A stretch of DNA of 7,231 bases from Paramuribaculum sp. (GTDB lineage Bacteria; Bacteroidota; Bacteroidia; Bacteroidales; Muribaculaceae), in contig JAIDXU010000115.1 of the NCBI GenBank assembly GCA_029058455.1, forward strand, positions 1 through 7,231, given 5' to 3'. Numbering within the stretch: position 1 is the stretch's first letter; each line of letters starts with the position of its first letter. Shown here in pieces: positions 1 through 7,231 of this stretch. The notes beneath the pieces are model-generated. The model searched no databases. It saw only the letters and a program-made list of their open reading frames with translations, and was not told the origin of the DNA. A program made the position numbers and the translations under genes.

Positions 1-789
1 CTTATATTTAAAGATCTTCTTCATCTTATTGATAATATCATTATCAATTTTCTGCTCCTCACTCTTTTTATCTTTCTTAAGAATTTCATGACCATGATAC
101 TTATTCTGATCATTCTCGTCATAAAACACGAGAAGCAATTTCTGCTTCTTGTCATAAAAATAGATACGACGCTCATTCTTGCCGCCGACCGCTTTTTTCA
201 AGCATATTTTGAGCTGAGGTTCAGGCACGGTCAATGGTGAAACCTGTTTGTTATTTACAATGCGAGGGCCGAAACGCGAATGTTTAAGATAATATTTATC
301 GAATTTTCGCTCAGGATCCCGGTTATCGCAAAACCATTCGTAGACCAACACATCGTCACAGGAAAGCATATTGATTTTCTTGGAAGCTGTAAGCTGCATT
401 CCATTCATGATATGAATATGGATCGAATTTGTGGGATATGCATCATGATTAACAACAAGCTCGTCGGAATATGCCGCACAAGCACCGTAAATGTGGTTAG
501 TGAAATCACTCTTGCCTACTTTGACGGTTTCAAATTTATCGTCAAGTTCCGAGTAATCAGACCACTCTGAAAAATGATTTCTCAATTCATGAACATTGCG
601 ATAATCACTGTCGCTTGGCTTGATCTCCGCTATAAGCCTATTGAATTTCTCAATCTCAATAAAGCCCTCGAAATCTTCGTGATCAATCATTTTAGCCACC
701 TCAATCAGACTTCTAAGATATATGCCGACCTCCTTTCTTGACAGCTTATCATTATTGAGGTCTTTGATAAGTATAAATACCTTTCTCAT
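1..789 (-). CDS. Unrecognised third protein of the DUF262/ATPase operon, 3' end missing
   Basis: This frame is open from an ATG at 789 to the left edge, giving 263 residues without a stop, so the gene is truncated by the window. The start is well supported: its ATG overlaps the TGA of the upstream ATPase gene by four bases (ATGA, 786-789), which implies translational coupling and co-expression. I do not recognise the family. The product is soluble, with no signal peptide or membrane segment. The N-terminal third is mostly helical and charged. Residues 123-127 read IHIHI, and a compact segment at 207-236 reads RRIYFYDKKQ..., then LLLVFYDEND and KYHGHEI. Conserved-looking His, Tyr, Arg and Asp residues there could form an active site, but this is a guess. 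The last 25 visible residues are Lys-rich and helical. By position it is the candidate effector or specificity subunit of the module. I am confident that it is a gene and not confident about any function. Confidence 0.85.
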   Translation of the reverse strand, partial: MRKVFILIKDLNNDKLSRKEVGIYLRSLIEVAKMIDHEDFEGFIEIEKFNRLIAEIKPSDSDYRNVHELRNHFSEWSDYSELDDKFETVKVGKSDFTNHIYGACAAYSDELVVNHDAYPTNSIHIHIMNGMQLTASKKINMLSCDDVLVYEWFCDNRDPERKFDKYYLKHSRFGPRIVNNKQVSPLTVPEPQLKICLKKAVGGKNERRIYFYDKKQKLLLVFYDENDQNKYHGHEILKKDKKSEEQKIDNDIINKMKKIFKYK

Positions 790-1922
790 AGACCAAACAA
801 TATATCAAGATCGCGGTTCATCTGAGAGAAAAATCGTGGAGGCGTTTTTTTAAGGCGACAATCCCGACCTATTTTTAAAGGTAAAATCCTAACAGGCCGT
901 GAAGTTGTTTCCCTGTCGAAAAAATATATCATCAGATCGCCGGGCTTAAGAACCTTGAGTTTCAGATTAACAAGCGCACCGTTGACAATATGATCGCTAT
1001 GGGTTTCTAAAATCACCTGAACTCCGCCGGCACACGCCTTTGAGATAAGACGCATTAAAGCTGACTGAGCCGCAGGATGAATGTGAGCTTCGGGATTTTC
1101 GATCATTACCAGACTGCCGGGCCGAGCAGAAAGCAATGCAGTGACAACCGAAAGAATATAGGTCACACCATAACCTGTATTGAGTGCTTCGACCTCTATA
1201 TTACCTCTGCCTTCACGAGTGTGGAGATATTTCAGTGAATATTTATCCTTGTCAAATTGAGTAAGCTGAACCGAAATGTCGGGAGAAATCTCCGAAAGCC
1301 ATTTATCAACCTGATTTTTCAGCGTTTTCTCATTCTCATCGTCGGTATCTTCATAGAGCATCTGCTCGACAACTACAGGTTTATGACCATATTTAGCCAG
1401 ATAATAAACGGCATACTCTCCCTGTCCCAAGTGATATGACACTTCACCGCTATCGTCAACAATCGAACTGTTACTCTCATACATTCCTCTGGGTCCATAA
1501 CGGAAAGCACTGAGATATTGCACACCACCCGGCACAAATAATGAAAATTTTTCAATATCCTCACGTTCAGGCAGCGGCACACCCTCAATTGCCGGCAAAC
1601 GAGACTCCGATTGCTCGGGATAGCCGAAAGTAAAGTCCATCTCCCTACCGTCAATAGTCAGAGAAAGAGTCATCCGGTCGGGATTGTCGACAATATCCCA
1701 GTTAATAAGCGTAAACGACTTGCCGACAGAAAATGAGTCACCTTTGAGGTTAAGACGCGAAGGATAGTCACCCTTCAGAACCGACTCCCTCAAAATAAGC
1801 AATGACTGCATAACCGACGATTTGCCCATGCCGTTCATGCCGGTAAGTATAGTGAGCGGAGCGAGCTGAAGATCGGAATCGGTGTGAATCTTGAAGTTAT
1901 GAATTTTCAGTCTTGTAATCAT
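786..1922 (-). CDS. ABC-type AAA ATPase of the DUF3696 / AAA_15 (RecF/OLD-like) class
   Basis: The 378-residue product is a soluble SMC/RecF-like ATPase. The Walker A motif is GMNGMGKS at residues 28-35. An ABC signature-like segment, NTGYGVTY, sits at 248-255. Walker B is SLVMIE at 270-275 with catalytic Glu275, followed by NPEAHIHP (276-283), and the switch/H-loop His is in ETHSDHI (306-312). The NxGxGVxY and ENPEAHxHP pair, and the C-terminal FFxQ...RDLDILFG end, are typical of DUF3696-containing ATPases as I remember them. Length fits a complete protein with no TOPRIM nuclease domain, which separates it from true OLD nucleases. The ATG at 1922 lies 12 bases after the DUF262 stop, and its TGA overlaps the next start, so it is the middle gene of one transcript. 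ATP hydrolysis is expected from intact motifs. A role as the energy or sensor subunit of a defence complex is inference from the neighbours. Confidence 0.93.
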   Translation of the reverse strand: MITRLKIHNFKIHTDSDLQLAPLTILTGMNGMGKSSVMQSLLILRESVLKGDYPSRLNLKGDSFSVGKSFTLINWDIVDNPDRMTLSLTIDGREMDFTFGYPEQSESRLPAIEGVPLPEREDIEKFSLFVPGGVQYLSAFRYGPRGMYESNSSIVDDSGEVSYHLGQGEYAVYYLAKYGHKPVVVEQMLYEDTDDENEKTLKNQVDKWLSEISPDISVQLTQFDKDKYSLKYLHTREGRGNIEVEALNTGYGVTYILSVVTALLSARPGSLVMIENPEAHIHPAAQSALMRLISKACAGGVQVILETHSDHIVNGALVNLKLKVLKPGDLMIYFFDRETTSRPVRILPLKIGRDCRLKKTPPRFFSQMNRDLDILFGL

Positions 1923-1934
1923 AAGTCAACTGTG

Positions 1935-2984
1935 TCATAAACTGTTAAACAAACGCTGCATCATTTCGAATCGCGTCACTACCTTATTTCGACCGGCAGT
2001 ATCGGTAGAGAGCGTTTCCTGAAAATAGGGATTCATGAGCAATTGCCGGTAACGATTGCGCAGCTTATCTGCCCGCGACATAAAATTAACATCTATATTA
2101 CGGGCTATTGTTACAGTAAGTGTCTCAAACAAAGTCTTTGAAAGAGGCTTGCGGCGCTCGGTCGAGGAATAAGGTCTGAAAGCGTCTATGCCGAAAAGAA
2201 AATCCGCAATGCGCAGAGACTCCGAAAACAGCGCGATCAACCTATCTACCTCAATATCATCAAACCGGCGCAATCTCTCCATTGTCTCGTTGAGGAAGAA
2301 ATCCATTCTACCGGAATAATCCCGAAAATCATTAATATAAAAGGCAAGGAAACGAAGTACCAACTCCATATCTGTCATTCGCCTTGATGAAATACCAAGC
2401 CTTTTGAATTCCCCAAGTTCAGCCATGTGTCTGAGTACTCTTTCCGAAACATCGGGAAAAAGTGCATTACGTATCTCCTGTGAATTAAGAGGCACCCCCT
2501 CTACATTCAATCGGCTGAAAATCACAAATTTCACATCAGTCGAAGCATTCCCTCCAATTATATTACACGCAACTTCGGCATTAAGAAAACGCCGCCTGTC
2601 ATAAAATGAGAAATCCTCCCATCTTTTATTCTCATAATCTGTGAGGAAATCCAGTCCATGAAGAGTCAATTTGCCGGTTACAGCAAAATTTCTCAACGCA
2701 TAAAGCCTCTGCAAGCCGTCGACAGGCACATAGCTACCGTTATATGTGGAAAAATCGAAATAAAAACTTGGCAAAGGTAGACCGAGCAATATTGATTCTA
2801 TGAGACGACTCTGCTTTCCCCTATCCCAAAGATTACCTGATCGCTGGATATCGGGATAAAGATCGACCCTGTTTTCTTCAAGCAACTTTATCAAATAGCC
2901 TACGGTCATTATGCGCTGCTCAACTTTGACAGCGGAAGGATCAAGGCTGAGATATGAGGGAACATAACGACCTTTCTTATTCAT
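1935..2984 (-). CDS. DUF262 (GmrSD N-terminal-like, ParB/Srx fold) protein
   Basis: The 349-residue product carries the DUF262 hallmarks in order: PDIQR at residues 44-48 and W53, then the IESILLGLPLP helix (62-72), VDGLQRL at 88-94, and NVEGVPLNSQEIRNAL at 160-175. Many family members have DGQQR where this one has DGLQR; Asp89, Gly90, Gln92 and Arg93, the core of the motif, are kept. In the family this fold is related to ParB/sulfiredoxin NTP-binding domains and occurs in type IV restriction enzymes (GmrSD, BrxU) and SspE. No DUF1524 HNH nuclease domain is visible: residues 180-349 are helical and charged without an HNH-like His cluster, so nuclease activity, if any, must come from elsewhere. 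The ATG at 2984 is the first possible one in its frame, since a TGA lies in frame ten codons upstream. It is the first gene of the operon, behind its own promoter, and its product probably acts with the ATPase. Confidence 0.93.
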   Translation of the reverse strand: MNKKGRYVPSYLSLDPSAVKVEQRIMTVGYLIKLLEENRVDLYPDIQRSGNLWDRGKQSRLIESILLGLPLPSFYFDFSTYNGSYVPVDGLQRLYALRNFAVTGKLTLHGLDFLTDYENKRWEDFSFYDRRRFLNAEVACNIIGGNASTDVKFVIFSRLNVEGVPLNSQEIRNALFPDVSERVLRHMAELGEFKRLGISSRRMTDMELVLRFLAFYINDFRDYSGRMDFFLNETMERLRRFDDIEVDRLIALFSESLRIADFLFGIDAFRPYSSTERRKPLSKTLFETLTVTIARNIDVNFMSRADKLRNRYRQLLMNPYFQETLSTDTAGRNKVVTRFEMMQRLFNSL

Positions 2985-3022
2985 AAGTGCAGGTATCAGA
3001 AATTGATATACTCATGGTTCAT
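2977..3022 (-). other. Leader with two mini-ORFs ahead of the DUF262 gene
   Basis: Downstream of the promoter, two short reading frames lie in the leader. One starts at the ATG at 3022 and encodes MNHEYINF, ending in TGA at 2996. The other starts at 3015 and encodes MSISISDTCTYE, ending in TAA at 2977, so it overlaps the DUF262 start at 2984 by eight bases. Neither is in frame with DUF262. Both could arise by chance in 40 bases of AT-rich leader. If translated, the second could couple to or compete with DUF262 initiation. Confidence 0.2.
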
Positions 3023-3029
3023 TGGTTTG

Positions 3030-3061
3030 CAAAGGTAGTCATTTATTCGTTTTCCACCAAA
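3030..3061 (-). promoter_or_regulatory. Bacteroidota-type promoter for the DUF262 operon
   Basis: Read on the minus strand, TTTG at 3061-3058 is followed by a 20-base spacer and TACCTTTG at 3037-3030. This is an exact match to the primary sigma consensus of Bacteroides, TTTG (-33) and TAnnTTTG (-7), with normal spacing. Transcription should start near 3025, leaving a leader of about 40 bases before the ATG at 2984. It lies back to back with the plus-strand promoter at 3138-3167. Confidence 0.75.
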
Positions 3062-3137: not shown

Positions 3138-3167
3138 TTTGTATATGAGAATTAACTGCTAATTTTG
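3138..3167 (+). promoter_or_regulatory. Bacteroidota-type promoter for the TPR gene
   Basis: TTTG at 3138-3141 and TAATTTTG at 3160-3167 match the Bacteroides -33 and -7 elements, with an 18-base spacer that is slightly short. The predicted start of transcription is near 3173, about 70 bases upstream of the ATG at 3246. The possible TTG start at 3165 lies inside the -7 element, so it cannot be the translation start of this transcript. This decides for the downstream ATG. Confidence 0.65.
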
Positions 3168-3995: not shown

Positions 3996-4027
3996 TAAGC
4001 CGTCTGCCTATCCCGGCGGGCGGCTTA
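3996..4027 (+). terminator. GC-rich intercistronic hairpin, possible weak terminator
   Basis: A 13-pair stem joins 3996-4008 (TAAGCCGTCTGCC) to 4015-4027 (GGCGGGCGGCTTA), with a six-base loop (TATCCC) and two G-U pairs on the plus-strand RNA. It lies 30 bases after the TPR stop and 35 bases before the next start. The tail is AAAAATTTC rather than a run of U, so termination would be weak. Because the G-U pairs become A-C mismatches on the minus strand, it is built for plus-strand RNA. It may attenuate transcription or protect the TPR mRNA end. Confidence 0.5.
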
Positions 4028-4062
4028 AAAATTTCAATACGTCACTCCCAACCAAGAATACT

Positions 4063-4359
4063 ATGCCTCTTACCGCAAGCAGCAGCCGCTCACCCCTTGC
4101 TGAGCGCATTTCACAGGCCGTGGCCGAATATGCAGCCAACGACCAGACATTCACCGACTATGTGATGCTGAGCATTAATCCCGCCACCGGCGAAGTAGCC
4201 ATAATCGATAATCCCGATCCCGAGATTGTTGACACCGACAACGAGCATGACTATGTAGCTCTGATGGATCTTGTGGAAATCAATGTGGCCGATCCGTCGC
4301 AATGGGTTCCCGATCAAGAAGCAATCGCCTCACTCGCCGCCGAATACCCCGGTCTCTGA
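4063..4359 (+). CDS. Small acidic protein of unknown function, paired with the next gene
   Basis: The 98-residue product is not recognised. It has 18 Asp/Glu against only two Arg and no Lys, so it is strongly acidic. It has no signal peptide or membrane segment and is probably cytoplasmic. A predicted N-terminal helix (residues 10-25, ERISQAVAEYAAN) is followed by a beta-like stretch, VMLSINPATGEVAIID (34-49), an acidic turn at 52-63 rich in Asp, and a C-terminal helix at 84-95. The codon use and GC level match the downstream gene, which supports it as real. Its TGA ends four bases before the ATG of the 558-residue membrane protein, so the two are very likely translated from one mRNA and may bind each other. 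No promoter of the TAnnTTTG type is visible in 3966-4062; transcription may come through from the TPR gene past the hairpin. Confidence 0.8.
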   Translation: MPLTASSSRSPLAERISQAVAEYAANDQTFTDYVMLSINPATGEVAIIDNPDPEIVDTDNEHDYVALMDLVEINVADPSQWVPDQEAIASLAAEYPGL

Positions 4360-4363
4360 TTCC

Positions 4364-6040
4364 ATGACTCAGCAATATAACTTCATAAAAGTTGAGTGGA
4401 GCAACGACACCTCTCTGCTTGACAACTTTTTTGACGCCGACGAGATCTTCACCATCACTCCTACCGTAGAGGGCTGGCAATATGCGCGTGTAACACGTCG
4501 CCACGCTACGGTGATTCTCACTCTCGCAGTCAAATCAATGCTTCCCGGCCGCACCATCGCCGAGATACTCCGCCTTGCGGGAGCCTATCCCGACAATGAG
4601 GAGGAGCTTGAGGCCGCGATGATCAAGGCCGGCATTCCCACCCACTGCTTCCATGCTCCGGGGTGGATGCAGCCGTCGGTCAACGCTAACGCACAAGGCG
4701 TTGCCCTGCGCACATATCTGTCGGTCAAGGATCTCGAGACACTGTTATCGTTTCCGTTCCAGCAGGGTTCGATACCTTTCGAGCGCATAATACTCGCCTC
4801 GGCCACACTTCCTCCGGTGCCCGAAGCGGGCTTCACCCGTCTCAGCGACAAGATAGAGCGCAAATATATGGTGGTCTATCCCGCCGGAGTCACCCCCTCG
4901 TCAACCTCGGTTGTTGAAGGCAATAAACTCACGCTCACATATACCGCCCCCGGCTGCGAGCCATCGGTGACTCATTTCACCGCCGGCCGCACATGTCCGT
5001 TTGTGACCTATAACGGCGCGGCCATCATGGTGCAACCCATCGAAGCGCTCGGCATTAAGCTCACCCCGCTCAAATCGCCGCTTGAAGCAGGTCAGCGCAC
5101 CGTGACCCTCATCATGAAGTTTGACCGCACAAGGGAAGTAACCGCCACCGCCACCTTCAACCGTGACAGCACCGAATATTCGCTGTTGCGCGACGGAGTT
5201 TTCCACGGCTATCGGGCGCGTCGTCTCGCCGTCAAAACAAAAGGCGACGAGAGCTATATGATCGATCTCCGTCAGTCAGACAACGCAACTGACACCATAA
5301 CAGCCGAGCAACCTGTCGCCAAGACCGAAATAACGACCGACAACACAGTGCTACCTGATCAGATCGCCACCTCGCGCCCCGGATCCACACGACGTTCAGC
5401 CGGCTCGATAGCGTTGATAATCGTTGCCGTAATTGCCGCGTTAGCTCTTGGAGTCGTAGCGCTAAACTATCTTCCGTCGATATTCAAAGGCGCTGATAAA
5501 TATGCTCCCGGCCTTGTGGATGTGTCAGAAGGGGTATCACCCGCCGAGGCAGCCGCTCCCGCCGCAACCGAGATCGAAACATCCGCTCCCGGTGCCGAAG
5601 CAATTGTCTCGCTCACCTCTGACGAAACCGTCGCTCCCGAACCGGAAGCTCCTGCACAACCCGAGCCACAACCCGAAGCTCCTGCCAAAAAAGTCAGCTC
5701 GGGCATAAACGAAGCCGACCTGGCCTATCTCAACGCCAACACCGTGTGGAGCAAAGACAAGCTCACCGGCGACGCCGCGCGTCAGCTCTACGACCTGATA
5801 TGCAGCGGAAATCTCAGCGAGATAGCCTCACATCCCTACTTCTCGGCCGGAGAATGTAGCAACGCCACAGCCAACAAAGTTGTGAAATTTATCTGGGAGG
5901 CTTATCAGAGCGACACTCAGGCTTCAAACACCAAAGCCCTCACCAAACTCAAAGGAAGCGGCTCGATTGATCTCACCAAGCTCTACGAAAACCTCGCGCG
6001 CATACGACCCCGCAATCCCAACCAATCTCCCCGCCCCTGA
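4364..6040 (+). CDS. Single-pass membrane protein of unknown function with Pro/Glu/Ala linker
   Basis: The product has 558 residues from the ATG at 4364. An in-frame TTG at 4271 would lie inside the preceding gene and is rejected. I do not recognise the family. Residues 1-165 form a mixed globular region. Residues 165-320 look beta-rich, starting at KYMVVYPAGVTP and including VTLIMKFDRTREVTATATF, and may hold one or two beta-sandwich domains. Arg343 and Arg344 precede a membrane helix at about 349-371, so the large N-terminal part should be cytoplasmic and the rest outside. Then comes a low-complexity Ala/Pro/Glu linker, densest at 423-441 (VAPEPEAPAQPEPQPEAPA), of the type that spans the periplasm in TonB or TolA. 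A small helical C-terminal domain follows (about 446-545), with two Cys residues. A signal peptide is absent. The layout fits a protein connecting cytoplasm and envelope, which is inference. It is co-transcribed with the 98-residue gene and ends at a strong terminator. Confidence 0.85.
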   Translation: MTQQYNFIKVEWSNDTSLLDNFFDADEIFTITPTVEGWQYARVTRRHATVILTLAVKSMLPGRTIAEILRLAGAYPDNEEELEAAMIKAGIPTHCFHAPGWMQPSVNANAQGVALRTYLSVKDLETLLSFPFQQGSIPFERIILASATLPPVPEAGFTRLSDKIERKYMVVYPAGVTPSSTSVVEGNKLTLTYTAPGCEPSVTHFTAGRTCPFVTYNGAAIMVQPIEALGIKLTPLKSPLEAGQRTVTLIMKFDRTREVTATATFNRDSTEYSLLRDGVFHGYRARRLAVKTKGDESYMIDLRQSDNATDTITAEQPVAKTEITTDNTVLPDQIATSRPGSTRRSAGSIALIIVAVIAALALGVVALNYLPSIFKGADKYAPGLVDVSEGVSPAEAAAPAATEIETSAPGAEAIVSLTSDETVAPEPEAPAQPEPQPEAPAKKVSSGINEADLAYLNANTVWSKDKLTGDAARQLYDLICSGNLSEIASHPYFSAGECSNATANKVVKFIWEAYQSDTQASNTKALTKLKGSGSIDLTKLYENLARIRPRNPNQSPRP

Positions 6041-6106: not shown

Positions 6107-7231
6107 TTATCTACCTATCTTAATCTTTCTTGTCTGTCCGTTAATCTTGATTACATAAAGACCACTTGGTAAGGCAATAGAATTAAGCGGAGAATTATTA
6201 AGTAATTTGCCGTCAATACTATAAATCTCAACGGGGAACTCAGAGTTTGATGTAAGTGTATTTCCACTGATAAAAATCATGGAATCATCCGAGTTAATTT
6301 TATTAACCGCATTGTATTCATCAAGTGAGAATATCTTACTGAATTTACTCCATTTATTATCTGCCTTATATGTCTCAAGGCTATTGGCCGGAACATATAC
6401 TTCAGCAATCGGATAGACCTCATTATTAAAAGCCGATTGATCCAAATAAGGAGGAATCTCAGCTTTCGATATTATAACCGGATAGTTCTTATATTGTAGA
6501 CCGCTATAACAGAACGCACATGCCCCTATATACTCCATTGTTGACGGGAATGTGATTTTTTCAATGAAATCATTATAGCATGCCCAACCATATATGTTCA
6601 TCACTCCCTCCGGCACATCATATACCTTATCACGTTTTGCTGTTGGATATACTATTAGGGTATTGGTAATGTCATTATATAGAACTCCCTCATGGGAAAA
6701 ATAAACAGGATTATTCTCATCGACCTCAATTTCAGTCAATGAACCACAATCTGATGTTATAGCAAATTCTCCTATCTTAACAATACTTTTTGGAATATGA
6801 ATCTTTTGTATTACGGAAGATTGGAATACCCGCTCACCAATACCTGTGACATTGTAATTACGTCCGTGAATCTCGACAGTTTCGGGAATTGTCATTTTTT
6901 CGACAGGATTATTTACCTTTGTTATAACTACCTCAGGATATATACCCGAATAAGAATATGTGTCATCACTTTCAGCCGCCCAGTCATCTATTCTGTCTCC
7001 TTCCACAATAAGTCCGAACTGTCCCCATTCAATATCTGACGAGAAAGATTCTCTTGCTCCTTCCGGCACAAACAATGCGCCGTTGGATCTATTCGTGCCT
7101 TCAAGTACACACCAAGATACCGGTATCACTTCGGGATTACGTAAAACTAACAGAGTCAGATCTTGCGAGTAGTTCAAGGCGTTGAGACCATAAAAGTACA
7201 CGCCATCAGGAATATCAAGCTGATACAGCTT
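6107..7231 (-). CDS. BspA-like leucine-rich repeat surface protein with Por/T9SS-type tail, 5' end missing
   Basis: The frame is open from the right edge to the TAA at 6107, giving 374 residues of the C-terminal part. The GTG at 7201 is only an internal codon, because the frame continues to the edge with KLYQLDIPDGVYFYGLN. Repeats of the LRR_5 type are visible, for example VTGIGERVFQSSVIQKIHIP, SIVKIGEFAI and MEYIGACAFCYSGLQ. Two copies of a cap motif end separate repeat blocks: ALFVPEGARESF...EWGQFGLI near the visible start, and AEVYVPANSLETY...KWSKFSKI before the tail. The last 60 residues, with VEIYSIDGKLL, LPSGLYVIKINGQ and a basic end, match the C-terminal sorting domain of the Por secretion (type IX) type. 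In the family such proteins are cell-surface or secreted adhesion proteins. The DNA is AT-richer than the neighbouring plus-strand genes. The gene shares a terminator with the convergent membrane-protein gene. Confidence 0.88.
   Translation of the reverse strand, partial: KLYQLDIPDGVYFYGLNALNYSQDLTLLVLRNPEVIPVSWCVLEGTNRSNGALFVPEGARESFSSDIEWGQFGLIVEGDRIDDWAAESDDTYSYSGIYPEVVITKVNNPVEKMTIPETVEIHGRNYNVTGIGERVFQSSVIQKIHIPKSIVKIGEFAITSDCGSLTEIEVDENNPVYFSHEGVLYNDITNTLIVYPTAKRDKVYDVPEGVMNIYGWACYNDFIEKITFPSTMEYIGACAFCYSGLQYKNYPVIISKAEIPPYLDQSAFNNEVYPIAEVYVPANSLETYKADNKWSKFSKIFSLDEYNAVNKINSDDSMIFISGNTLTSNSEFPVEIYSIDGKLLNNSPLNSIALPSGLYVIKINGQTRKIKIGR

Follow-up and report, generated by a model that had tools for sequence, protein, structure and literature searches.

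Gene layout and Menshen assignment

The window analysed here, a stretch of 7,231 nucleotides from a Paramuribaculum sp. (assembly GCA_029058455.1), is the whole of contig JAIDXU010000115.1, part of a fragmented genome that is approximately 80% complete. Its left part carries three minus-strand open reading frames (2984-1935, 1922-786 and 789-1) which, judged by their sequences, are a Menshen operon with nsnA, nsnB and nsnC in that order. The first gene, nsnA (1935..2984), encodes a DUF262 (GmrSD_N) protein of 349 amino acids, ParB/Srx-fold NTPase-like; the second, nsnB (786..1922), encodes an AAA_15/OLD-like ABC ATPase of 378 amino acids with a C-terminal DUF3696-like tail; and the third, nsnC (1..789), runs for 263 codons and reaches the contig end without a stop codon. 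A gap of 12 bases (1923-1934) separates nsnA from nsnB, nsnB and nsnC overlap by an ATGA at 786-789, and a pattern search predicted a promoter-like TTTG-N20-TACCTTTG upstream of nsnA (3030..3061, minus strand). An earlier interpretation made from the letters alone (the sequence-only reading) had claimed this three-gene layout with its gap, overlap and upstream promoter. Layout, gap and overlap are present, as is the promoter-like pattern, but that reading had overlooked the truncation of nsnC at the end of the contig. Little of NsnC seems to be missing, since its closest relative, P0002 (267 amino acids, 68% identical), extends two residues beyond its last residue in the alignment. The promoter-like pattern, which we take to be the Bacteroides-type consensus, occurs twice in the window against 0.08 expected, a count that 2 of 200 shuffles reach; the second site (3138-3167) is divergent from that of nsnA and lies upstream of a neighbouring TPR-like gene.

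All three proteins match PADLOC models for Menshen, the matches being judged by E-value rather than by PADLOC's own cut-offs and system rules. NsnA matches PDLC03877 over residues 14-348 (E = 9e-96) and NsnB matches PDLC03878 over residues 1-376 (E = 1.4e-89), while NsnC matches PDLC03909 over residues 4-262 (profile 7-270 of 274; E = 2.6e-17, 61 bits) and PDLC03892 over residues 137-248 (E = 3.8e-10, 38 bits). The locus thereby resembles Menshen in its three adjacent genes for a DUF262 protein, an AAA_15-type ATPase and a third protein matching NsnC models; no difference is decisive, the two NsnC matches being just moderate. These matches support the earlier proposal of an anti-phage module related to Menshen; the further suggestion that the third gene might set it apart as a new variant is not required, since that gene matches two of PADLOC's diverse NsnC models. 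We regard the locus as a mostly ordinary new copy of a known defence system, and infer that the operon would act against phage. In the accessible part of a 2023 review (PMC10952713), Menshen resistance is stated to be lost when the DUF262 gene is mutated or deleted, and the roles of the DUF262 and nuclease parts are left to future work.

The domains that the sequence-only reading had expected were searched for in Pfam. GmrSD_N (DUF262), the sole Pfam match of NsnA, reaches 63.7 bits (cut-off 33.2; E = 3.2e-17), and in NsnB both AAA_15 (E = 2.9e-25) and AAA_21 exceed their cut-offs; DUF3696 aligns where expected, at residues 326-375 (profile 2-52 of 52), with a sub-threshold score of 16.1 against 22. 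The residues named in that reading (Lys34 and Glu275 of NsnB, Asp89 and Arg93 of NsnA) were correctly identified. The DGLQR motif of NsnA, the DGxQR of DUF262, occupies residues 89-93 (2706..2720, minus strand, as for all motifs below), with D89, Q92 and R93 identical in 12/12 aligned sequences. In NsnB, the Walker A motif GMNGMGKSS spans residues 28-36 (1815..1841), and both K34 and E275 (1098..1100), the first Glu of an ENPE motif and the putative catalytic glutamate, are kept in 11/11 aligned sequences. Both nucleotide sites therefore look intact, the counts referring to 12 and 11 hand-picked sequences, mostly from the best-scoring loci carrying both genes. Among PHROGs, NsnA matches a full-length family of unknown function, phrog_2598 (1e-54).

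Distribution of the operon and variability of its third gene

The window's type of NsnC was found in 7/397 family genomes, its own included, in a search that started from NsnC alone, and in every one of these seven NsnA and NsnB are adjacent. The gene order is A-B-C in five of them and B-C-A in two (L036:1423-4589 and L038:6935-10113). PDLC03909 was matched only in the window's own genome among 395 drawn across the class, and in 0/14 control genomes, so that this NsnC type appears sparse. Beyond the family, 123 of 72,556 plasmid records hold an NsnA relative, and a trio of DUF262, DUF3696 and hypothetical genes was present in all four plasmid records inspected among the six best rows, all from Proteobacteria; the third genes of these trios are known by their annotation as hypothetical. 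The sequence-only reading had named a lack of conserved co-occurrence of the three genes as grounds for refuting its defence proposal; co-occurrence was observed in the seven family genomes and the four plasmid trios.

NsnA on its own is more widespread, with relatives (E <= 0.001) in 74/297 family genomes, again counting the window's own, many of them distant DUF262 proteins. We examined 30 NsnA neighbourhoods, namely 29 listed loci besides that of the window and one from genome G163. A clear NsnB (E <= 1e-20) stands beside NsnA or one gene off in 17 of these, including L053, where NsnB is a piece of 90 amino acids, and L043, where the NsnA frame was missed by the ORF (open reading frame) picker and its position comes from the relative search. 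No clear NsnB was seen in 12 neighbourhoods, and at L040 a weak NsnB match adjoins NsnA with a strong one two genes further. At L037:5876-6986, which also counts among the 17, NsnB is spread over two frames (84 and 300 amino acids); the copy may have decayed, or the assembly may be at fault.

Third genes were scanned at 15 of the 17 NsnA-NsnB loci and at L114 and L115, leaving out L050, L053 and L040. Each of these 17 genes is recognised by an NsnC model, with best matches no weaker than 3.5e-14; at L050 and L053, a third gene of comparable length was not seen. The third genes vary strongly among loci that share NsnA and NsnB (L033-L051, L114, L115), and the two halves of model PDLC03879 are matched by different third-gene proteins. 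Those of L033, L034 and L037 match PADLOC CARF7 DUF2103 at their C-termini (2.3e-7, 4.3e-12 and 1.8e-11), which suggests that their C-terminal domain is shared with CARF proteins.

The other genes of the contig encode a TPR-like protein, for which every Pfam score is under cut-off, two proteins without a Pfam match, and a BspA-type leucine-rich-repeat protein (6107-7231, minus strand; LRR_5 4.2e-13, Por_Secre_tail sub-threshold) that is cut by the contig end. With such neighbours, a metabolic operon was rejected. The TPR gene was matched in 32/34 genus genomes, its own included, and no NsnA, NsnB or NsnC (E <= 1e-5) was found among frames of at least 80 amino acids in 14 TPR-gene neighbourhoods, of which L101 and L104 are short and L103 has a TPR frame that the ORF picker itself missed. 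The low synteny around this gene precluded a comparison with empty sites. That the operon is a decayed or housekeeping module, no longer or never working in defence in this genome, appears highly improbable: the contig end does fall inside nsnC, but all three frames are open with their motifs intact, the operon type is sparse, similar trios occur on plasmids, and the neighbourhoods of the conserved TPR gene lack Nsn genes.

Several further observations concern the setting. The operon (window 1-3000) has a GC content of 0.38-0.45 against 0.55-0.57 for the genes at 4000-6000; a lower GC is common among acquired genes, but the leucine-rich-repeat gene at the opposite contig end is equally poor (0.37). 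An Acinetobacter plasmid carries its trio approximately 2 kb from brxL, and 21 phage records (H21-H40) hold NsnA-like DUF262 genes, one of which covers at least 80% of the query. Scans of genome contigs with NsnA and with P0002 yielded no relative, and Rfam searches no match.

NsnC as the candidate effector

Nothing in Pfam matched NsnC. Its AlphaFold2 (AF2) model, with a predicted local distance difference test (pLDDT) score of 88.2 and a predicted template modelling (pTM) score of 0.82, predicts an alpha/beta, possibly PIN-like N-terminal domain and a helix-and-meander C-terminal domain. The latter, a predicted RNase domain of BECR-like type (residues 146-263; 1..354), comprises in the model a helix (190-199), short strands before it (176-178 and 181-183), and strands 208-213, 218-224 and 230-236. 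The predicted active site includes K169-H170 (280..285), present in 52/52 rows of the NsnC alignment, and H232 (94..96) on the last meander strand, present in 51/52; R161, K169 and H170 each occur in 16/16 representatives. The alignment derives from 48 proteins, that of the window included, minus P0001 (identical to the window's), P0013 and P0047 (a piece of 156 amino acids), and its 52 rows are not all distinct, the P0003 row being identical to the L038 protein.

Set against BECR proteins, which have an N-terminal helical segment followed by a four-stranded meander, NsnC gives weak structural scores. The fold match of NsnC to the CdiA-CT toxin domain of Cupriavidus taiwanensis (5t87) and to BECR RNases lies at a level that unrelated folds can also reach, and no sequence match to these was found. 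Modelled alone from five sequences, the C-terminal domain gave a pLDDT of 52.5, and this model was left out of the fold comparisons. Comparisons among NsnC groups by hhalign, with thin profiles, remained below 3% probability throughout; the NsnC structure had no match among viral models at E <= 0.001, nor NsnC among phage records. A protein search with the C-domain alignment returned nine mostly fragment-like proteins of 86-245 amino acids, two of which had been seen before; their contigs are no longer than 3.4 kb. No relative standing alone in a different context emerged from this search, whose candidates were restricted to proteins of about that size.

We favor, at a probability of roughly 60%, a model in which the operon is a phage-triggered switch: NsnA and NsnB restrain NsnC and, on infection, release it as a BECR-fold ribonuclease. 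The DUF262 protein and the ATPase would hold NsnC in check and would sense infection in a nucleotide-dependent manner; phage infection would then free NsnC, which would cut RNA, its probable target, and so stop phage production, the presumed outcome being arrested growth or abortive infection. The proposal builds on features that were observed directly: how the genes are ordered and spaced, their matches to the models and co-occurrence across genomes, DGxQR and Walker motifs that are intact, and, in NsnC, the conservation of R161, K169-H170 and H232.

It is unlikely, in our view, that the nuclease is instead NsnA or an OLD-like NsnB degrading phage DNA, with NsnC as a recognition or regulatory subunit. 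NsnB does match GajA- and Old-type PADLOC models; the Menshen partner is termed a predicted OLD nuclease in the accessible part of PMC10952713, where the prose gives OLD-type TOPRIM for Menshen while the visible part of the table omits Menshen there; and PtuX is termed a putative nuclease in the accessible part of PMC11980606. At E <= 1, however, Pfam showed neither DUF1524 nor TOPRIM families in the three proteins, the only part of NsnB beyond the ATPase is its DUF3696-like tail, and the invariant polar residues of NsnC sit in its C-terminal domain. The third gene is moreover the most variable part of the system, as expected of an effector, though equally of a sensor. Type IV restriction of the GmrSD type was ruled out for want of the DUF1524 HNH nuclease domain, in which the window proteins differ from GmrSD, BrxU and SspE despite sharing DUF262 with DGxQR, and an OLD/TOPRIM nuclease in NsnB appears improbable given the missing match and the little room after the ATPase. 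NsnB belongs to the ATPase superfamily of PARIS AriA, Gabija GajA and Septu PtuA, whose PADLOC models it matches at 1.1e-26, 1.6e-16 and 2.9e-14, respectively, against the far stronger match to its own model, and the partner genes of those systems differ from Menshen's.

Slightly less probable again is that NsnC is the effector but acts through its PIN-like N-terminal domain, or by an unknown chemistry, rather than as a BECR RNase. None of the acidic positions at issue is invariant, in contrast to R161, K169 and H170; in the structure comparison, the scores of NAD kinases are similar to those of PIN proteins; and the PIN-like domain of PtuZ is reported, in the accessible part of PMC11980606, to lack catalytic residues.

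Relation to ptuXYZ and implications

The accessible part of that paper (PMC11980606; mBio 2025) describes 17 'ptuXYZ' operons, presented as novel, each consisting of a DUF262 protein, a PtuA-like ATPase and PtuZ, in which a BECR domain accompanies the PIN-like one; the word 'Menshen' is absent from its text. The window operon shares this three-part plan, with a DUF262 protein devoid of DUF1524, an ATPase matching PtuA models, and a third protein whose N-terminal domain may be PIN-like and whose C-terminal domain may be BECR-like. It differs in that PtuZ is described there as YoeB/HigB-like, whereas the C-terminal domain of the window's NsnC has its own R...KH...H signature. Compared by described anatomy rather than by sequences, Menshen and ptuXYZ are likely one system. 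More tentatively, and with somewhat less than even odds, the C-terminal domain of NsnC may represent a BECR RNase clade so far seen only in Menshen operons, with an R...KH...H active site of its own, carried on a PIN-like adaptor, such that Menshen/ptuXYZ would be one system with a swappable RNase cartridge.

Among the literature titles listed for Menshen and NsnA/B/C, we found no study of the Menshen mechanism. Li et al. (2025), reportedly a study of Menshen domain polymorphism to go by its title, may already state the NsnC effector role or the ptuXYZ link. The value added here likely lies in these two points. The conserved R...KH...H signature in NsnC provides a directly testable effector hypothesis for Menshen. 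The link between Menshen and ptuXYZ, if true, would unite under one name systems that are now named separately.
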